DNA from: Seongchinamella unica
Lineage (GTDB): Bacteria > Pseudomonadota > Gammaproteobacteria > Pseudomonadales > Halieaceae
NCBI RefSeq assembly: GCF_004354085.1
Contig: NZ_SMSE01000001.1
Location: forward strand, 983,724-1,047,723
Direction of reading: 5' to 3'
DNA length: 64,000 nt
Positions within the stretch are counted from its first letter, which is position 1. Each line of letters begins with the position of its first letter. A model generated the notes under the pieces. The model worked only from the letters and a program-made list of their open reading frames with translations, was not told where the DNA came from and ran no database searches. A program made the translations under genes and the position numbers. Below are positions 43,857 to 52,633 of the stretch, piece by piece.

Positions 43857-45026
43857 TCAATACCGCGAGCGCGGCAGGATCAGCACAACAACCACCGCCA
43901 GCAGCATGATTGCCGCCAGCCCCGCCACCACCAGGTCGTAACTGCCGGTCCTGTCGTAGACATAACCGGCCAGTGGCGGCCCGACAAGCCCCAGCGGCAG
44001 GAACAGGGGACCCTGGGCGCCATTGACCTGGCCGATGACCCCGGCGGGGAAGTAACGACTGTTGAGGTAGGGGTGCATGGGCAGAAAAGCCCCACCGCTG
44101 AACCCCATCACGGCAACGCTGACGGCCACCAGCACGGTGGTATCGGCCTGCAGCAACATCAGCAGTCCCAGCATGTTCAGCAGCAGTAACGCCGCCGCGA
44201 AGAAGCGCGCATGGGGCCGGAACAGGTCCGCCAGCAGGGCCACGATGAGCTTGCCCAGCGCGCCACCGGAACCTGCCACGGCCAGGAACAGTCCGGCCTC
44301 GATAGCACTGAAGCCCCGGTTGGAAAACAGCGGCGGGTAGCAGATGGTCATGATGACCATGACGTTCAGCGTCAACGCCACGGTGATGCCCACCAGCCAG
44401 AACTCACGCTGGCGGTAAAAGCCACGGTCGAGCTTGCGCTCCACCGCGTCCACGACGGCGCCGGCATCGGCAGGGATGGCCAGTAAAATCCACAACCAGA
44501 GTACCGCCAGCAGTGACAGTGACATCAGCGCCAGGGTCTGGCGCCAGTCAAGCCACTCAAAGGAAGCGCCGATCACCGGCGGCAGCGTTACCGATGCCAC
44601 GCTGATGCCCAGCGCGGCGACCGCCAGGGCCCGCCCCTGCTGGTTGGCATACAGCTTCACCATCAGGCCATTGACCACCACCGGACCGTAAAAGGTAATG
44701 CCTATGGCGAATCCGAGGAAGCCCAGGCCGGCCTGCCAGAGGCTGGAGGACAGGCTGATGGCAAACAGGGACAGCATGGCGAACGCGCAGCCGCCGAGCA
44801 GCATGCGCCGGATGGGCCAACTGTCCACCAGCCGACCCACCATGGGCGCGATGAGGCCGGGCACCAGCAACAGCGCCACTGGTGCGATATTGATCGTTGC
44901 CACACCGACAGCAAACTCTGCGGCCACCGGCTCGACAAAAAAACCGAACAGGGAGATCAGGCCCGCGCCCAAACCCAGGCAAGTCATCCCCGCCATGGCG
45001 GGGAGCCAGGCTCTCAGCGAGCGCAT
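43857..45026 (-). CDS. MFS transporter
   Basis: A 389-residue major facilitator with about 12 helices, of the MCT-like or oxalate/formate-antiporter-like group. It starts MRSLRAWLPAMAGMTCLG. The first helix overlaps an 18-bp perfect palindrome (44987-45004) of the same GTCATCCCCGC type as the repeat at 11141. It lies 33 bases after the acetoacetate-decarboxylase-like gene, so it is likely the transporter for the minus-strand catabolic unit. Confidence 0.88.
   Translation of the reverse strand: MRSLRAWLPAMAGMTCLGLGAGLISLFGFFVEPVAAEFAVGVATINIAPVALLLVPGLIAPMVGRLVDSWPIRRMLLGGCAFAMLSLFAISLSSSLWQAGLGFLGFAIGITFYGPVVVNGLMVKLYANQQGRALAVAALGISVASVTLPPVIGASFEWLDWRQTLALMSLSLLAVLWLWILLAIPADAGAVVDAVERKLDRGFYRQREFWLVGITVALTLNVMVIMTICYPPLFSNRGFSAIEAGLFLAVAGSGGALGKLIVALLADLFRPHARFFAAALLLLNMLGLLMLLQADTTVLVAVSVAVMGFSGGAFLPMHPYLNSRYFPAGVIGQVNGAQGPLFLPLGLVGPPLAGYVYDRTGSYDLVVAGLAAIMLLAVVVVLILPRSRY
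44987..45004. repeat. 18-bp palindrome inside the MFS coding region
   Basis: TCCCCGCCATGGCGGGGA is a perfect palindrome. With flanks (GTCA before, GCCAGG after) it resembles the interspersed repeat arm at 11143-11170. It encodes part of WLPAMAGMT in the MFS protein. It may be a repeat copy captured into the gene, or a chance match. Confidence 0.55.
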
Positions 45027-45059
45027 GTCAGGACTCTGTCAGCGGGCACAGCGCAGCAG

Positions 45060-45839
45060 TCAGCTGCGCTTCGGTCCTCCGTTCTCACCGGGCCAGCGGG
45101 AGCCGGAAATCGTATCGGCGTAGGGTAAAAAGGCCTCCGCATCCAGTTCGCCGGCGAGGGTAATCTGGCGGTCGAGGAAGATGGGCCACCACAGGTGGGC
45201 CGATACCTGCTCGCGCAGGGGCAACAGACTGGCCAGCGGATCCCAGGGGCTGTCACGCAATACCAGTTCGCCCTGGACCTCTTCTTTCCACGCGGTACCG
45301 TACTTGCTCATCACGTGCACCACGTGGGGCGGGAAATCGAAACCCGTGGCCGGCCCCCCGACGCTGACCGCGCGGGAGTATTTCAGCCACCACTCGTTCT
45401 GCACCCACTCCTCGGCAGCTTCCACCGGGCCGGTGGACACGCCCTTGAATTCCACAAACGTGTAGCCCTGGTGGATGCAGCGGGCGCTGACCTGGGGCCC
45501 CAGCCGATAGTACTCGGTGGTACAGGGGTACTTGGGCTGGCCGTTGGTTTCCTGGCTGATGAAAATCGCCGACTCCTGGTCGATACCATAGCCCAGGGTG
45601 TATTCACCGGCGGTGCCCTGGTAGTCGGCATCAACGGTGGTGACGATACCGAACTCGGGCTCGTCGGGAACCGGGAAGTTATAAATGGTCAGATTCACGT
45701 GCGGATTTGCGCCCGGATCTATACCGGGGGGAAGCAGTTTGGCAATCGCCTCCGGATCGGTCCGGTAGACGATCTTGAGCATGGGCCAGTTGACGATATC
45801 GCCGGGGTTGCCCTGGGGTGCACCTGATTCATTTGTCAT
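45060..45839 (-). CDS. Acetoacetate decarboxylase family protein
   Basis: A 259-residue protein of the ADC fold. The likely Schiff-base lysine lies in QETNGQPKYP, with the family Glu upstream. True acetoacetate decarboxylases make acetone, but many relatives act on other substrates or are aldolase-dehydratases, so the reaction is not assigned. ATG 45839 follows AGGA. It is the fourth gene of the minus unit, 56 bases after the SDR. Confidence 0.82.
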   Translation of the reverse strand: MTNESGAPQGNPGDIVNWPMLKIVYRTDPEAIAKLLPPGIDPGANPHVNLTIYNFPVPDEPEFGIVTTVDADYQGTAGEYTLGYGIDQESAIFISQETNGQPKYPCTTEYYRLGPQVSARCIHQGYTFVEFKGVSTGPVEAAEEWVQNEWWLKYSRAVSVGGPATGFDFPPHVVHVMSKYGTAWKEEVQGELVLRDSPWDPLASLLPLREQVSAHLWWPIFLDRQITLAGELDAEAFLPYADTISGSRWPGENGGPKRS

Positions 45840-45895
45840 AGTTTTTTCCTTTGCTTGTCGTTCAGAGTTTGTGGAGTGCGGCTGCTCGGGCGGCC

Positions 45896-46774
45896 CTACC
45901 CCACCATCGCCGGCACAGGCGTTGTGCGATTGAGGATCATGTCGGCCCGGGCCCGTATCTTGGCATCCGTGTCCTCGGTGGTTGCCAGCAGCCAGAAGGC
46001 GTCCTGTTCCAGGCCTTTCACCGCCATCTCGGCCACTTCATCCGGGTGGGTGGTCTGTAGCTCAATGCCGTATTCGGCGGCCATCTTCTTCATGTCCTCG
46101 ACGGAATTGATGCCGGACTCGTTGCCCGCTACCGCTTTTTGCAGCGCCTCAGGGCGTACCCTGCCGGAATTGAACAGGCCGGTGTCCACCACATGGGGAC
46201 CCGGGAACAGGGCGCTGACTTTCACCGGCAGCCCGCCGGCCTGGCACTGGTAATGCAGGTTTTCGGTAATCGCGTGCACGGCGGCTTTACTGGCGGTATA
46301 GATCGGGGCATCGGGCAGGATGATATAGGCGCCGTTGCCGGAGCCGGTCACCACAAAGTGCGCCTCCTTGCCGGAGGCCACCAGGCGGGGCATAAAGGCG
46401 CGGATACTGTTAATCACCCCCCACACATTGACGTTGAGGCACCACTGCCAGTCTTTCTCGGAGTAGTCCCACATGGCGCCGCTCTCGCCGGCGCCAATAC
46501 CGGCGTTGGCAAACACCAGGTCCAGGCCGCCAAAGGCTTTCTCCGCCGCGTCGGCCAGGGCGTTGAGGCTGTCTACGGAAGTCACGTCGCAGTGCTCGAC
46601 CAGGTGATCGATACCCTCGGCGGCGAGATCCGCCGCGATCTGCTCCATGGCACTTTTATCCACATCGCCCACCACGATCCGGGCGCCCCTGCGTCCGAGG
46701 GCGAAGGCCAGTGAACGGCCCACACCGCTCGCTCCGCCGGTGATAAGCGCTACTTTACCGCTGAAATCCTGCAC
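45896..46774 (-). CDS. Short-chain dehydrogenase/reductase
   Basis: A 292-residue SDR. The cofactor motif TGGASGVGRSLAFALG is near residue 11, NAG in VFANAGIG near residue 90, and catalytic YTASK near residue 160. The start is GTG 46774, directly after the TAA of the Rieske gene and nine bases after GCAGGAG, so translation is coupled. In context it may oxidise the hydroxyl made by the Rieske enzyme. Confidence 0.9.
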   Translation of the reverse strand: MQDFSGKVALITGGASGVGRSLAFALGRRGARIVVGDVDKSAMEQIAADLAAEGIDHLVEHCDVTSVDSLNALADAAEKAFGGLDLVFANAGIGAGESGAMWDYSEKDWQWCLNVNVWGVINSIRAFMPRLVASGKEAHFVVTGSGNGAYIILPDAPIYTASKAAVHAITENLHYQCQAGGLPVKVSALFPGPHVVDTGLFNSGRVRPEALQKAVAGNESGINSVEDMKKMAAEYGIELQTTHPDEVAEMAVKGLEQDAFWLLATTEDTDAKIRARADMILNRTTPVPAMVG

Positions 46775-47749
46775 TTATGCAATCTCCTGCTTGTCCTGGG
46801 ACGTGATGTAAAACTGGCGCACCCACTTGCGGAAGGTGACCAGGGTTTTATCTTCCCGGCAGAACACCGGGCGATGCTTGTGCACCTTGTTGGCCCAGAT
46901 TGGGTAGTCGTCACCCAGCCCATCGATGATGCCTTTCATCACGTCGTCACCGGCCAGATCTTCGATCTCCCTGCGCACAATCAGGGTCCAGCGCATCAGC
47001 GTCTGGTTACGGTCGATCGGCTGCGGGCTGTTGTACATGATCATCTCCGCATTGGGGCCGTAGGTGGTGCGCACCAGGGCAAAGCCGGGGCTGTAGGTGG
47101 TGGCATGGAGGTGACTGGGATAGTCGTTGTTTTTCATGTCCGAGTGCAGGTGCATGGTGCGACCGTCCGGATCGATGGTGACCTCGGAGTCGGGTATTTC
47201 CATCTGGCTGTGAACGTAGGCGAAGTGCACCGGGTCGCAGGAATTTTCGCAGATGTCCTGGACATGGGCCGGCACCAGGTGCTCGGTGTAACGCGGCGCC
47301 GTCCAGGCCGGGTCACCGAGCTCCGGGAGGTCTGGAAGCTGCCACTGGGGAGGCGTATTCTCCGGGTGGAACCAGACGTAAACCTCGCCGTTTTTTTCCT
47401 CGGTGTGCCAGGTACGCACCCGGGCCCGCTCGGGTATATCGTCACAGTAGGGAATGCTGGAACACTTGCCGTCCTCGGCATTGAACTGCCAGCCATGGAA
47501 GGGGCAGCGCACGGTTTCGCCAATCACCCGTCCCTCATGCCCCAGGTGGGCACCCAGATGGGGGCAGAAAGCGTCCTGCAGGGCTACCCTGCCCGAGCGG
47601 GTTCGGTAAAGCACCAGTTCCCGGTCAAAGGCCTTGACCGGCTTGACCTCGCCGATGGCCAGTTGGTGCGAACGCTCCACCGAGTACCAGCCCATGGGAA
47701 ATTCAGGGGTGGTGTTGGTCTTGGATTCACAGGCTTCCACGATAGTCAT
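46775..47749 (-). CDS. Rieske non-haem iron oxygenase, KshA-like
   Basis: A 324-residue oxygenase component. The Rieske cluster is bound by Cys62/His64 (CPHLGAH) and Cys82/His85 (CPFHGW). The mononuclear iron site is Asp172, His175 and His180 in DPVHFAYVH. The layout follows 3-ketosteroid 9-alpha-hydroxylase KshA and related sterol oxygenases more than classic aromatic dioxygenases, but sequence alone does not fix the substrate. No reductase is encoded nearby. ATG 47749 follows GGAGA; the open frame upstream has no family similarity. Confidence 0.88.
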   Translation of the reverse strand: MTIVEACESKTNTTPEFPMGWYSVERSHQLAIGEVKPVKAFDRELVLYRTRSGRVALQDAFCPHLGAHLGHEGRVIGETVRCPFHGWQFNAEDGKCSSIPYCDDIPERARVRTWHTEEKNGEVYVWFHPENTPPQWQLPDLPELGDPAWTAPRYTEHLVPAHVQDICENSCDPVHFAYVHSQMEIPDSEVTIDPDGRTMHLHSDMKNNDYPSHLHATTYSPGFALVRTTYGPNAEMIMYNSPQPIDRNQTLMRWTLIVRREIEDLAGDDVMKGIIDGLGDDYPIWANKVHKHRPVFCREDKTLVTFRKWVRQFYITSQDKQEIA

Positions 47750-47795
47750 GATGGGTCTCCGTCGCCTTGCTGTCGTCTGTTCAGGGTTGCGTGTT

Positions 47796-49010
47796 TCAGT
47801 TGAAAATGGATACGTCAGGGCCGATTTCTTCGGCCACCTGCTGCAGGCGGGCCCGGTCCAGGCGGTAAAACTCGACGGCGTTCTCACCGAGAATCTTGCG
47901 CCCGTCCTGCTCCGGCAGGTTGCTGAAGGTGTCGCGTAAATACTGGGCCGTGTTGGGCCAACTGCCCTCCGGGTGCGGATAGTCGCTACCCCACATGATT
48001 TTTTCCAGGCCAATGTCATCTCGGATGTCGATGTCGGGACGCAACACGCAGGACGCGCCGATCCCGATATTGCGCTGGTAGTATTCGCTGGGCTTCATTG
48101 ACAGGTGCTCGCGGAAATTGCCCAGCTTGGCGGAAATCTGGCCCTCGCTGTAATGGAAGTCCATCAACCGCAGCCAGGGCGGTAACATGAACATCGTTCC
48201 GCCTTCGACAATCATCACCTTGAGCCGCGGAAAGCGCTCGAATACACCGCCCCAGATCATGAAGGTCAGCGGGCGGTACAGCCACCACATCACCTCGGAA
48301 ACATAAACGCCCATGGCGCCGGGCAATTGTTCGCGGTTGTCCTCGGCGGGGAAGCCGGCACCGAAATATTCGGCGTGGGGCGCGGGACCGGAGTGGAAGT
48401 GAACGATGACGCCCAGGTCTTCGCACACCTCCCAGAAGGGGTCGTACTTCACGTGGTGGTAGGCGTCCTGCTCGTACCACAGGGTGGGAATCATTACCGC
48501 CCGCAGGCCGTTGTCCACGCACCAGCGCACCGCTTCCACGGCCTGATCTACGTCCCACAGCAGGGGAATGGAGGCCACGCCGATGTGCCGCGCGGGATCA
48601 TTGCCGCACAATTCCACCAGCCAGCGGTTGTGGGCCATGGCACCGGCCCATTGCAGCTCGGGCACCATGTCCTTGGGCGACAGCCCCAGCCCGGCGCCAA
48701 AAGGGGGAGTATTCTTTTCGGTAATCCCGTCGGGGAAGATGACCTCGGCAGCAATGCCGTCATTGGCCAGCATTTTCACCCGCTCCCGGTAATCCCATGC
48801 CCCGGTGAGCTCCTGCTGGATCGGTGCCCGCCAGGCGTCGTTGATGTCCTTGATCAGGAATTGCGACTCGGACTTCTCCATCATCTCCACGGTGATGGGA
48901 ACCGCCATATCCAGCATTTCGTGGTATTTCGATTCCACGTAGGGCTTGTAGTCGGCGATGGGCAGACCGGCATGGCAATCGGTGGAGACCACCAACAATT
49001 TATCTGACAT
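47796..49010 (-). CDS. Amidohydrolase family (ACMSD-like) protein
   Basis: A 404-residue TIM-barrel metal-dependent hydrolase. It starts MSDKLLVVSTDCHAG; the usual N-terminal HxH metal pair is reduced to one His. Later landmarks are VIVHFHSG (His) and KIMWGSDYPHPEG (Asp). Relatives include decarboxylases and hydrolases of ring-cleavage products. It is the first gene of the minus unit. ATG 49010 was chosen; a GTG lies four codons upstream. Confidence 0.83.
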   Translation of the reverse strand: MSDKLLVVSTDCHAGLPIADYKPYVESKYHEMLDMAVPITVEMMEKSESQFLIKDINDAWRAPIQQELTGAWDYRERVKMLANDGIAAEVIFPDGITEKNTPPFGAGLGLSPKDMVPELQWAGAMAHNRWLVELCGNDPARHIGVASIPLLWDVDQAVEAVRWCVDNGLRAVMIPTLWYEQDAYHHVKYDPFWEVCEDLGVIVHFHSGPAPHAEYFGAGFPAEDNREQLPGAMGVYVSEVMWWLYRPLTFMIWGGVFERFPRLKVMIVEGGTMFMLPPWLRLMDFHYSEGQISAKLGNFREHLSMKPSEYYQRNIGIGASCVLRPDIDIRDDIGLEKIMWGSDYPHPEGSWPNTAQYLRDTFSNLPEQDGRKILGENAVEFYRLDRARLQQVAEEIGPDVSIFN

Positions 49011-49029
49011 GGTTGAATTCACGCTTCAG

Positions 49030-49087
49030 TTTTATCGACAAAATAACGCTACAAACGGGCAAGCTTGCACATTTGTATACAAAATAG
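49030..49087. promoter_or_regulatory. Twin operator in the TetR divergent promoter region
   Basis: TTTTATCGACAAAATAA (49030-49046) and ATTTGTATACAAAATAG (49071-49087) agree at 12 of 17 positions. The second contains the perfect 12-bp palindrome TTTGTATACAAA (49072-49083). Both lie in the only gap between the divergent units and are 41 bases apart, about four helical turns. They are the best candidates for TetR binding and for joint control of both units. Confidence 0.6.
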
Positions 49088-49127
49088 TTTAATGCCCTGA
49101 CGAATGCAACTGCATTACGGTTTATTC

Positions 49128-49751
49128 ATGGACACTATTGAGGCCCCTCTGGGGCGTCGCGAAAAGCGCAAGCAAGAGATCCGCCAGCGCATCGAGGACG
49201 CCGCCTACCGCCTGTTCCAGCAACACGGCATCGAGGACACCAGCATCGAACAGATCTGTGTCGAGGCGGACGTTGCCCGGCGCACCTTTTACGGCCACTT
49301 CAACAACAAGCACGCCCTGCTCGGCGGGCTGGGCATCAACCGGCTGTACAGCCGTTCCGAACCGATGCTGGCTGAGTTGATGGCTGCCCACAGCACCACC
49401 CGTGGTCGTCTCGAGGCAATGATCGACTACATTGAATCCAGTTTTTCCGGCATGACGGACATCGACCGCCAGCTTATTCTGGTGGGCCCGACAGCGTTCG
49501 CCGAGGACCCGGACAAGCAACGGGAAATCGGCCTTTCCGCCATGGCCAGCTTTACCCGGCTGTTTGAAGCCGGGGTGGCACAGGGCGATGTCAACACCCG
49601 CTTTTCCCCGGAAACGCTCGCCACTAACGTGGTGGGCACCCTGAACATGCTGACCATCAGCTGGTGCCTGGATAGCAGCTACCCCGTGTTTGCCAAATTG
49701 GAAGAAGCCCGCTGCCTGTTCGAGTACCTGATCTGTAAGGACAGCCAGTAA
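49128..49751 (+). CDS. TetR family transcriptional regulator
   Basis: A 207-residue regulator. The N-terminal helix-turn-helix occupies residues about 12-58 (TSIEQICVEADVARRTFYGH), followed by an all-helical ligand domain. ATG 49128 was chosen over the in-frame ATG at 49104, as MDTIEAPLGRREKRK gives the usual basic start. It is divergent from the amidohydrolase-Rieske unit and upstream of the racemase, cupin and P450 genes, so it probably senses a pathway intermediate. Confidence 0.92.
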   Translation: MDTIEAPLGRREKRKQEIRQRIEDAAYRLFQQHGIEDTSIEQICVEADVARRTFYGHFNNKHALLGGLGINRLYSRSEPMLAELMAAHSTTRGRLEAMIDYIESSFSGMTDIDRQLILVGPTAFAEDPDKQREIGLSAMASFTRLFEAGVAQGDVNTRFSPETLATNVVGTLNMLTISWCLDSSYPVFAKLEEARCLFEYLICKDSQ

Positions 49752-49822
49752 GCCCAGTCTCGCCATTGTTCATCGCTCTGGCGAAGGGCAAGCTGCACCC
49801 CCGATGACACGGAGCAACACGC

Positions 49823-50974
49823 ATGGGTCCACTGACAGGCACTACCATCATCGAAATCGCCGGCCTTGGGCCGGGCCCGTTCGCCGCCATGTCACTGGCC
49901 GACATGGGTGCCGACGTTATCCGCGTGGAGCGCCCCGGCGGCGGCCTGTTCGCCGACCAGCAGGACCCCTGCCTCGATGTGCTCAACCGCGGCAAGCGCT
50001 GCATCGCGGCAGACCTCAAAACCGTCGAGGGCGTTAATATCGTACTGACCCTGGTGGAAAAGGCCGACGCCCTGCTGGAGGGCAATCGCCCCGGGGTGAT
50101 GGAGCGCCTCGGGCTGGGCCCGGATACCTGTCTGGCACGCAACCCGCGACTGGTCTACGGGCGAATGACCGGCTGGGGCCAGGAGGGCCCGCTGGCAGGC
50201 GAAGTGGGGCATGACCTCAACTACGTGGCCCTGAGCGGCGCTCTGCACGCTATGGGCCGGGCGGGAGAAAAGCCGGCTATCCCATTAAACCTGGTGGGCG
50301 ACTTTGGCGGTGGCGGGATGATGCTGGCATACGGCATCGTCTGCGCTCTACTCGAAATGAAAACCTCCGGCAAAGGCCAGGTGGTCGATGCGGCCATGGT
50401 GGACGGAGCCGCCACCCTCATGGCGAGTACCTACGCCGCACTGCAGGCGGGCTTCTGGTCAGACGAGCGCGGGACCAACGTGCTCGATTCCGGCTCCCAT
50501 TTTTACGAGGTCTACGAAACTGCCGATGGCAAGTACATCAGCATCGCGCCGGTAGAGCCGCAGTTCTACGCCGCTTTCCTGGAGCGACTGGGCGAGGATA
50601 CCGCGGGCCTGGAAAATCAGTGGGACATGGCAAACTGGCCGGCCTTCAAAGCCCAGTTGGCCGATCTCTTCAAACAGCGCAGCCGGGACGAGTGGGATTC
50701 ATTCTTCGCCGGCGCGGACATTTGCTACGCGCCGGTGCTGTCCCTGTCAGAGGTCCGTCACCATCCCCACCATCAGGCCAGGGCCACCTATCTCGACGAT
50801 GGCAACAGCTGGCAACCGGCGCCGGCGCCCCGGTTCAGCCGGACCCCGGGGGAGATCCGGCGCCCGCCCGCCAGGACAGGCGCGCACTCAAGGGAAATAC
50901 TGGCGGAATTCGGCTTCGCCGAGACAGAAATCGAGGCCCTGATCGACAAGGGCGCAGTTAAGCAGAGTGATTAA
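49823..50974 (+). CDS. Alpha-methylacyl-CoA racemase-like CoA-transferase III family enzyme
   Basis: A 383-residue family III protein. The catalytic pair His130-Asp131 (GHDLNYVALSG) and Asp160 (VGDFGGGG) keep the 30-residue spacing of mycobacterial alpha-methylacyl-CoA racemase, together with the conserved PLNLVGDFGGGGMMLAYGI region. Such racemases interconvert 2R and 2S methyl-branched acyl-CoAs from isoprenoid or sterol side chains. Gene order with a P450 supports that role. It begins 71 bases after the TetR gene. Confidence 0.9.
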   Translation: MGPLTGTTIIEIAGLGPGPFAAMSLADMGADVIRVERPGGGLFADQQDPCLDVLNRGKRCIAADLKTVEGVNIVLTLVEKADALLEGNRPGVMERLGLGPDTCLARNPRLVYGRMTGWGQEGPLAGEVGHDLNYVALSGALHAMGRAGEKPAIPLNLVGDFGGGGMMLAYGIVCALLEMKTSGKGQVVDAAMVDGAATLMASTYAALQAGFWSDERGTNVLDSGSHFYEVYETADGKYISIAPVEPQFYAAFLERLGEDTAGLENQWDMANWPAFKAQLADLFKQRSRDEWDSFFAGADICYAPVLSLSEVRHHPHHQARATYLDDGNSWQPAPAPRFSRTPGEIRRPPARTGAHSREILAEFGFAETEIEALIDKGAVKQSD

Positions 50975-50984
50975 GGAGAGAGCA

Positions 50985-51431
50985 ATGACCCTACCCGAAG
51001 CGGTCCACTTTGGAGAAAACGACCTGCCATTTATCGATATTGGCGATGGCAGCCAGCTCAAGGTCCTGCAGGTAAAGCGTGGCGAGGGACTGTGGATTAT
51101 CGAGAATATTTTCCAGGCCGGCTACGAGGTGGAACAGCACAAACACACCGGGCCCGTTTGGGGCTATACCTCATCCGGCGCCTGGAAGTACCGGGAATAT
51201 GACTACGTTAACCGTGCCGGCTCCTTTCTCTATGAGCCGGCAGGCTCAGTGCATACCCTGCAATGTGTCGAGGACAACACCCGGGTCTGGTTCCAGATGT
51301 ATGGCAGCAACATCAACCTCGGTCCCGACGGCAACATCACCTCCGTCGTCGATGGCCAACTAACCCTGGATTTCTATCTCGCCATGTGTGAAGAGCAGGG
51401 CCTGCCCCGGCCCAATGTGCTGGTGGAATAG
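50985..51431 (+). CDS. Cupin-domain protein (2,4'-dihydroxyacetophenone dioxygenase-like)
   Basis: A 148-residue single-cupin protein. Metal ligands are suggested by EQHKHTG and the later SVHTLQ histidine. It resembles the DAD-type cupin dioxygenases, which cleave a carbon-carbon bond beside a ketone, but function is only inferred. ATG 50985 follows AAGGAGAG; the upstream start at 50967 overlaps the racemase end. The P450 start follows its stop after two bases. Confidence 0.8.
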   Translation: MTLPEAVHFGENDLPFIDIGDGSQLKVLQVKRGEGLWIIENIFQAGYEVEQHKHTGPVWGYTSSGAWKYREYDYVNRAGSFLYEPAGSVHTLQCVEDNTRVWFQMYGSNINLGPDGNITSVVDGQLTLDFYLAMCEEQGLPRPNVLVE

Positions 51432-51433
51432 CC

Positions 51434-52633
51434 GTGTTGATCGATATTTACAGCCCCGGGATCTACACTGCCGGCATACCTCACCGCCAGTTTGCCTGGC
51501 TGCGGGAAAACGCACCCGTGTACTGGCATGAGCATCCCGACGGCGGCGGCTACTGGGTCGTGAGCCGGCACCGGGAGGTGGTCCAGGTATCGAAAGACTT
51601 CAAGACCTACTCCGCCGAGCGCGGCTTCGTCATGGTCGACGACATGGAACCCGACGTGCTGGACATGGTGCGAAACCAGTTGCTGGGCATGGATCCGCCC
51701 CGTCACGCTCCCCTGCGGCGGGCCGTGATCACCCGCTTTACATCGAAGCGACTGGCGGCACTGGAGCCCCGGGTACGGGCCATTGCCCGCGGCATCATGG
51801 CGCGGGTCGGCGCGTTGGAGGACATCAATTTCGTCGAAGACCTGGCCGGCGACCTGCCTACCGCGGTGATCTGCTCGCTGCTGGATATACCCGAGGACAT
51901 GTGGCCGCAGATTCGCCGCTGGTCAGACCTGTGCACCTCCGCCACCGACCCGGACCTCGGCGGCACTCCCGAGGAGGTCAACCAGGCCAGCATCGAAATG
52001 GGTACCTACGGTTTTCAGCTCGCCTCACAGCGCAAGGACGGTGGCGGCGATGACCTGATTTCCCTGCTGATCAACCAGGAGGTCGATGGTGAGAAAGTAT
52101 CAGAGGCGGAATTCGCCTCTCTGTTTGTGCAAATTGCCGTCGCCGGCAACGAAACCACCCGTGGACTGATCAGCAGCGGTATGTACCTGCTGGCACAACA
52201 CCCGCAGGCCTATGCTGAGCTGGAACGCGATTATTCGCTCATTCCCTCGGCGGTGGAAGAAATGCTGCGCTGGACCTGCCCGCTGCACTATTTCCGCCGC
52301 ACCGCTACCTGTGATACGGAACTGGGTGGGGAAAAAATTGCCGCCGGTGACCGGGTGGTCATGCTATACAGCTCGGCCAACTTCGATGAAAGCGTCTTCC
52401 ACCAGCCAATGAAGTTCGATATTCGGCGCAATCCCAACCCCCACCTCGCCTTCGGCTACGGCATTCACCTGTGCCTGGGCGCCAACCTGGCGCGGATGGA
52501 AGCCAGACTGTTCCTGGAGGAGTTCTTCCGGGCTTTCAGTGGCCTTGAGCTCACCGGGACGCCCAGCTACATCGAGTCAAATATTGTGCACGGATTCAAG
52601 CAGATGCCAGCACGGCTGACGCGCCGTCACTGA
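51434..52633 (+). CDS. Cytochrome P450
   Basis: A 399-residue soluble class I P450. The I-helix AGNETTRG lies near residue 236, the ExxR motif in VEEMLRW near 274, and the haem ligand Cys347 in FGYGIHLCLG. The sequence is of the bacterial CYP124/125/142-like type, enzymes that hydroxylate terminal methyl groups of sterol or isoprenoid chains; that assignment is tentative. Start is GTG 51434, two bases after the cupin stop. No ferredoxin or ferredoxin reductase gene is in the window. Confidence 0.92.
   Translation: MLIDIYSPGIYTAGIPHRQFAWLRENAPVYWHEHPDGGGYWVVSRHREVVQVSKDFKTYSAERGFVMVDDMEPDVLDMVRNQLLGMDPPRHAPLRRAVITRFTSKRLAALEPRVRAIARGIMARVGALEDINFVEDLAGDLPTAVICSLLDIPEDMWPQIRRWSDLCTSATDPDLGGTPEEVNQASIEMGTYGFQLASQRKDGGGDDLISLLINQEVDGEKVSEAEFASLFVQIAVAGNETTRGLISSGMYLLAQHPQAYAELERDYSLIPSAVEEMLRWTCPLHYFRRTATCDTELGGEKIAAGDRVVMLYSSANFDESVFHQPMKFDIRRNPNPHLAFGYGIHLCLGANLARMEARLFLEEFFRAFSGLELTGTPSYIESNIVHGFKQMPARLTRRH

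Follow-up and report, generated by a model that had tools for sequence, protein, structure and literature searches.

What does a divergently transcribed, TetR-flanked gene cluster of Seongchinamella unica, a member of the Halieaceae, oxidize, and with which enzymes? The cluster lies in a 64,000-nt stretch of DNA (C1:983724-1047723, referred to here as the window, in which all feature positions are counted) of a 4.19 Mb genome. In order, its minus strand encodes a protein of the amidohydrolase family, a Rieske oxygenase, a short-chain dehydrogenase/reductase (SDR), an acetoacetate decarboxylase (ADC)-fold protein, and a major facilitator superfamily (MFS) transporter, with the SDR start directly abutting the Rieske stop. 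The plus strand encodes a TetR-family regulator, an alpha-methylacyl-CoA racemase homolog, a cupin, and a cytochrome P450, the last three genes overlapping or lying 2 bases apart. An initial annotation had assigned the cluster to steroid or isoprenoid oxidation. The genes it named are all intact open reading frames (ORFs) whose Pfam families agree with their names, and a Pfam scan of the cluster genes bore out its remark that neither a thiolase nor an acyl-CoA dehydrogenase is encoded there. Its overall reading is supported in part; it missed a probable oxygenase and the older unit to which this enzyme belongs. On balance, the cluster is probably a TetR-controlled, divergently transcribed catabolic locus with a four-gene oxidation cassette at its core, consisting of an amidohydrolase-related dinuclear oxygenase (ARO, a class name used in excerpts of PMC10811679), the Rieske oxygenase, the SDR, and an ADC-fold Schiff-base enzyme.

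For the first of these proteins, the name "amidohydrolase" matches the Pfam family but probably misstates the function. Judging from its predicted metal ligands, the protein is most likely an oxygenase. Excerpts of PMC7782822 describe PtmU3 and AibH2 as dinuclear hydroxylases of the amidohydrolase fold, list the AibH2 ligands as Asp25, His27, His211, Glu265, Asp337, and His340, and equate PtmU3 Glu313 with AibH2 Asp342 as a seventh ligand, which the mononuclear AibH1 lacks. This seventh residue is informative because activity was diminished in AibH2 D342A (excerpts of PMC10401708). Residue alignments here retained homologs covering >80% of the length of the window protein, in addition to the window protein itself (ARO, 59 of 60 matches; Rieske oxygenase, 71 of 79; ADC-fold protein, 57 of 59; SDR, 54 of 54; racemase, 20 of 20; cupin, 5 of 5; P450, 18 of 20, mostly non-orthologs). 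All 60 ARO rows share D15-x-H17, H210, E273, and D347-x-x-H350-x-E352, that is, the six dinuclear ligands (D-x-H, H, E, D-x-x-H) and the carboxylate two residues past the last histidine (E352), including relatives of down to ~50% identity in deltaproteobacterial and Myxococcota loci.

Similarity searches point in the same direction. DitZ (Rhodococcus rhodochrous, PDB 8uyr) and PtmU3 (from the platensimycin/platencin pathway) ranked first when the single sequence was searched against the PDB, and a profile of 25 relatives matched PtmU3 (5e-29), DitZ (1.5e-27, ~22% identity to the window protein), and PDB 4dzi (2.7e-19). A structure model (pLDDT 88) had DitZ as its first Foldseek match, with DitZ and PtmU3 both within the first three ranks. 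In DitZ, the residues aligned with the ligands are H, E, D, H, and D; a literature search by its name returned no paper on the enzyme among the matches listed. PtmU3, AibH2, and SfbO have the fold, the Pfam family, and the metal ligands, including the seventh carboxylate, in common with the window ARO, at ~20% identity. The structural-genomics "amidohydrolase" 4dzi (MAP2389c) also has a glutamate and a DxxHxE motif at the aligned positions, and may be an oxygenase as well.

Several results weigh against this assignment and leave room for an ordinary mononuclear hydrolase or decarboxylase, of the ACMSD or resorcylate decarboxylase kind, acting in a conventional ring-cleavage pathway with a single Rieske step. 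The Pfam family is identical in both cases. Moreover, the decarboxylase 4icm (8e-15) was placed above SfbO (1e-13) and AibH2 (3.5e-13) in the profile search, so overall similarity alone cannot separate AROs from decarboxylases, and in Foldseek ACMSD and dihydroxybenzoate decarboxylases followed closely behind DitZ and PtmU3, with ACMSD ranked above SfbO and AibH2. The gene neighborhood also differs from that of AibH2-like genes, 90% of which adjoin a small Rieske protein (a frequent rather than a defining trait); a small Rieske protein, a ferredoxin, and a reductase are all absent from the cluster genes, and the window ARO instead neighbors the full Rieske oxygenase, the SDR, and the ADC-fold protein described above. 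As a control, PF04909 proteins of the same genome and of a class-wide sample, taken from the ORFs of loci L115, L116, and L135-L163, were aligned with this profile. Fifteen rows had E <= 0.05, and several of these pair up as fragments of a single protein or as different frames of a single locus. All control rows are partial, none covers D15/H17, and the position of His350 is also histidine in three of nine. Nonetheless, the position of Glu273 is histidine in all five rows aligned there, and that of Glu352 is acidic in none of seven. Ordinary members of the family usually bear an H-x-H metal motif, in place of which the window protein has D-x-H, and its DxxHxE completes a dinuclear site in 60/60 rows. 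With PtmU3 and DitZ also topping the profile search, we consider a mononuclear hydrolase or decarboxylase quite unlikely, and the protein would act as an oxygenase.

The gene grouping exceeds what chance would give, as comparative synteny showed. We fetched 79 loci with the Rieske protein, kept the 60 whose Rieske relative is at least 55% identical, and counted neighbors where the flank could be tested. An ADC-fold gene follows the Rieske gene in 49 of 49 loci, an ARO gene precedes it in 49 of 53, and an SDR gene is present in 41 of 49. Rieske and ADC thus form a constant pair in these loci, in most cases accompanied by ARO and SDR, and the older conserved unit is ARO-Rieske-SDR-ADC; the absence of the SDR from 8/49 relatives and of the ARO from 4/53 counts against a four-gene cassette. 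In L057, L059, L068, and L075, Rieske and ADC are kept and no ARO gene lies next to the Rieske gene. The remaining genes are less constant (divergent TetR, 35/51; MFS, 20/49; racemase, 17/47; cupin and P450, 4/47 each). Since few relatives carry it, the racemase-cupin-P450 arm looks like a recent, late add-on. The initial annotation had used the pairing of racemase and P450 as a guide to the pathway, but this pairing is lineage-specific.

Co-occurrence across genomes agrees with the synteny. Among 140 Halieaceae genomes, the ADC-fold gene was found in 84 (57 of the 78 of good quality, and 21 of 28 genera) and the ARO gene in 76; 75 genomes had both, one had ARO alone, nine had ADC alone, and 55 had neither (Fisher 4e-28, uncorrected for kinship). 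These per-genome counts pool the main cassette with paralogous ones, and one genome (G195, ARO at 55% identity) may hold only a paralogous cassette. Of 369 genomes drawn from across the class, with at most four candidates scored in each, only two had an ARO match at 1e-90, one of them being the S. unica genome itself. Farther afield, a deltaproteobacterial contig (L095) has the order Rieske-ARO-ADC-SDR in unrelated flanks, with ABC-transporter-type genes on one side and a beta-lactamase-family gene on the other. Among plasmid records, distant relatives were found in ten for the ARO and in 50 for the Rieske enzyme, in every case at <60% identity, and the annotations listed for them did not account for function.

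The second oxygenase of the cassette was described initially as KshA-like and hence as a steroid-ring enzyme, which the phylogeny does not support. The ORF listed at 414 aa starts too far upstream; a 324-aa product is likely, with its ATG at 47749 preceded by GGAG (residue numbers here follow a 342-aa reading starting at 47803). CxH, CxxH, and D190/H193/H198 are present in 72/72 rows and D299 in 71/72 (one gap). Because the Rieske and mononuclear iron ligands are complete, the protein should be an active terminal oxygenase. It has the Rieske and KshA_C domains and all iron ligands in common with KshA (3-ketosteroid 9alpha-hydroxylase), but the two belong to separate clades. In a tree of 37 Rieske oxygenases, the window enzyme falls in a 20-row clade (support 100/99) of Halieaceae, Myxococcota, and a few others, whereas KshA5 groups with a different protein of the S. 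unica genome (100/98; long branches, including that of KshA5, were flagged). The window enzyme is 28.6% identical to KshA5 (150 bits), versus 41.5% (296 bits) for this second protein, and a KshA identity for the window enzyme was therefore rejected. Its nearest named relatives, among those listed, are from Seongchinamella, HTCC2148, Pseudohalioglobus, and Halioglobus, all Halieaceae. The KshA candidate lies side by side with an HsaA-like gene (396 bits, under the cut-off of 450) about 283 kb from the cluster (L117:6972-9344, equivalent to G000:C1:744971-747343), and this pair is a probable steroid locus of the same genome.

The two remaining cassette enzymes retain catalytic residues, the ADC-fold protein only in part. 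Tyr159 and Lys163 of the SDR are found in 55/55 rows. The Schiff-base lysine of the ADC-fold protein, K103, is found in 58/58 and aligns with the lysine of ADC structures. Arg29 and Lys116 of the Clostridium acetobutylicum enzyme are needed for acetoacetate decarboxylation; the position of Arg29 is tryptophan in 58/58 rows, and that of Lys116 is tyrosine in 56 and phenylalanine in two. As these two residues are not kept, a retro-aldol or dehydration reaction is likelier than acetoacetate decarboxylation on the basis of the alignment. Foldseek matched the model of the protein, which is weak at residues 84-102 adjoining the lysine, to ADC, Swit_4259, and an aldolase-dehydratase; the fold is common to Swit_4259 and other ADC-fold aldolase-dehydratases, at ~15-16% identity. 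In two relatives (L063:11902-12682 of Haliea salexigens and G210:C10:128113-128887), the ADC gene is split into two pieces in different frames, which is a frameshift or an assembly error.

Control by TetR, as the initial annotation proposed, agrees with a conserved palindrome between the divergent ARO and TetR genes. The 81-bp gap contains a 28-bp palindrome with 12 of 14 positions paired, which one of 200 shuffles equaled. Its core recurs in 30 of 34 gaps of relatives, compared with 43 occurrences when the full 1.29 Mb of loci is counted on either strand, and the S. unica genome has a single site within three mismatches. In 10 of the 34 gaps, however, the best palindrome was matched or beaten by at least 15 of 200 shuffles, several relatives have another sequence as their best palindrome, and part of the conservation may be due to kinship. 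The palindrome is nonetheless likely the operator of a local switch, to which TetR would bind.

The racemase-cupin-P450 arm lent the initial annotation much of its steroid or isoprenoid flavor. The racemase aligns with the 2-methylacyl-CoA racemase MCR of Mycobacterium tuberculosis (PDB 1x74) across residues 2-352, and H130, D160, and E245, found in 21/21 rows, align with the catalytic His, Asp, and Glu of MCR. Homology to a 2-methylacyl-CoA racemase thus stands, while the "intact His-Asp-Asp" site is in fact His130, Asp160, and Glu245; the genomic setting differs from that of MCR. H58, H60, E77, and H96 of the cupin were present in 6/6 rows, and its PDB matches were two function-unassigned cupins followed by 2,4'-dihydroxyacetophenone dioxygenase. 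By score only, the P450 is nearest to CYP125MRCA (392 bits), followed by CYP124 (266) and CYP125 (258), and so supports the earlier description; its heme cysteine was conserved in 19/19 rows. CYP125 and CYP124 are sterol and methyl-branched-lipid hydroxylases. Elsewhere in the genome, another eight proteins match P450 at 1e-20.

These genes raise the question of whether the locus is a steroid pathway, in which the Rieske enzyme would be a KshA-type ring hydroxylase and the P450 and racemase would remove the sterol side chain. We view this as possible but rather doubtful. To identify steroid degraders, the HsaA family NF045629 was tried and rejected as non-discriminating: 91 of the 140 genomes match it at 1e-60, yet the curated cut-off is passed by none; KshA orthology was therefore taken as the marker. 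A threshold of E <= 1e-90 gave 29 of 140 genomes, of which two (G229 and G230, 45-47% identity) were dropped. ARO is carried by 26 of the 27 Halieaceae genomes with a KshA ortholog (Fisher P = 2e-7, uncorrected for kinship and genome quality), which favors a steroid link, as do the affinity of the P450 to CYP125MRCA and the racemase homolog. The cassette core is also present in the Halioglobus isolate BC5_1 (L051), which is probably, going by its name, the cholesterol-growing isolate BC51 of PMC5790920 (as excerpted). Conversely, 50 of the 76 ARO genomes have no KshA match (incomplete genomes included), among them three from the same genus that are nearly complete (G158, G217, and G219), so an obligate steroid pathway was rejected for the core. 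Most clusters, including that of BC5_1, lack the P450, the Rieske enzyme falls outside the KshA branch, and a better KshA candidate is encoded elsewhere in the genome.

Paralogous cassettes add context. A second ARO (48-53% identity) was listed in 17 of the 140 genomes, often adjoining a second ADC. All four paralogous places fetched (L129, at G314:C44:1-19000, L130, L131, and L132) have ARO-Rieske-SDR, with the ARO ligand set complete in 4/4. The ADC-fold gene adjoins ARO in L129 and L130 and is one gene off in L131; L132 has only a weak ADC-like ORF (25%) between Rieske and SDR. In L129, the only one annotated, genes for a flavoprotein reductase and HsaA-, HsaD-, and HsaC-like proteins precede the cassette, and two sulfotransferase-domain genes are also present. 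L130 has genes of similar length in the same order as this Hsa-like set, and the ORFs of L131 and L132 showed no such set. Although the L129 matches fall below curated cut-offs (HsaA-like, 348 bits against 450; HsaD-like, 171 against 400; HsaC-like, 305 against 450), this context, which also speaks for the steroid interpretation, is the best hint that cassettes of this kind can supply a route of phenol hydroxylation and meta-cleavage, which follows the logic of steroid ring degradation. That the locus does not degrade a nutrient but tailors a membrane terpenoid or a secondary metabolite strikes us as very unlikely: PtmU3 is a biosynthetic enzyme (excerpts of PMC7782822), and a SnoaL-like protein and a sulfotransferase come after the cassette in the HTCC2080 locus, yet no terpene or polyketide synthase occurs among the scanned neighbors, and the TetR switch, the MFS transporter, the CoA-ester racemase, and the Hsa-like context of one paralog fit catabolism better.

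For the catabolic locus that we favor, the steps could be ordered as follows. A hydrophobic ring or isoprenoid compound, or its CoA ester, would release TetR from the palindrome; the Rieske enzyme and the ARO would each hydroxylate an unactivated carbon; the SDR would turn one hydroxyl into a ketone; and the ADC-fold enzyme, through its lysine, would cleave this ketone or remove water from it. The racemase, cupin, and P450 arm may, in this clade, trim a methyl-branched side chain. We keep "hydrophobic ring or isoprenoid compound" as the presumed substrate class, and name no compound. A steroid- or terpenoid-like substrate is plausible but unproven, with the P450, the racemase, the Hsa-like context of L129, the association with KshA, and the core in BC5_1 all pointing toward it. 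In a bolder version, the oxygenases of the cassette would let it stand in for beta-oxidation where acyl chains are blocked or bound to a ring. By analogy with PtmU3, which is reported to beta-hydroxylate a diterpenoid-CoA, the ARO would hydroxylate the beta carbon of the CoA ester, the SDR would make the beta-ketone, the ADC-fold lysine would cut the C-C bond, and the Rieske enzyme would open or mark the ring. Taken jointly, these steps are unlikely, though if true they would explain the missing thiolase and acyl-CoA dehydrogenase genes.

Table 1. Features of the S. unica cluster, with positions in the window.
Feature	Position	Strand	Evidence
MFS transporter, accessory	43857..45026	-	Pfam MFS_1, 90.6 bits; synteny in 20/49 testable relatives
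ADC-fold protein	45060..45839	-	Pfam ADC, 128.6 bits; K103 kept
SDR oxidoreductase	45896..46774	-	Pfam adh_short; Tyr159/Lys163
Rieske oxygenase, KshA_C type	46775..47749	-	Pfam Rieske and KshA_C; complete Rieske and mononuclear iron sites
"Amidohydrolase", assigned here as probable ARO	47796..49022	-	Pfam Amidohydro_2; alternative ATG start at 49010
Candidate TetR operator, palindrome TACAAACGGGCAAG/CTTGCACATTTGTA	49050..49077	.	Between the divergent ARO and TetR genes
TetR-family regulator	49104..49751	+	Pfam TetR_N, 51.9 bits; alternative ATG at 49128
Alpha-methylacyl-CoA racemase homolog	49823..50974	+	Pfam CoA_transf_3; MCR 1x74, 407 bits
Cupin	50967..51431	+	Pfam Cupin_7; H58, H60, E77, H96
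Cytochrome P450, near CYP125/CYP124 by score	51434..52633	+	Pfam p450; heme Cys347

Two relatives have further genes beside the cassette. In the Luminiphilus-type locus of HTCC2080 (L079:12678-15471), a DUF1214 protein also follows the cassette, along with the SnoaL-like protein and the sulfotransferase. In Parahaliea mediterranea, a PrnB-family gene (monodechloroaminopyrrolnitrin synthase family, 600 bits; L072:5452-6786) adjoins the cassette, near genes for a TonB receptor, an M19 dipeptidase, a bile-acid-symporter-family transporter, and a class-V aminotransferase.

The individual parts belong to known families. Literature searches, judged by title or the start of the abstract, found no description of their combination, in which a single TetR switch would govern an ARO together with a full Rieske oxygenase, an SDR, and an ADC-fold enzyme, and a search of PMC10100682 found no passage on steroids, Rieske enzymes, P450s, aromatics, terpenes, or ring hydroxylation. 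Research has covered few amidohydrolase-fold oxygenases, and most candidates have no assigned substrate. The link of this ARO group with a Rieske oxygenase, an SDR, and an ADC-fold enzyme, seen across the family, offers a concrete four-enzyme pathway, together with a regulator through which its inducer may be found, and suggests that some genes of catabolic clusters annotated as "amidohydrolase family protein" are oxygenases. Halieaceae are abundant in coastal seawater (excerpts of PMC10100682), and the substitute for beta-oxidation, if true, would be an unrecognized route of isoprenoid or steroid turnover in coastal seas.

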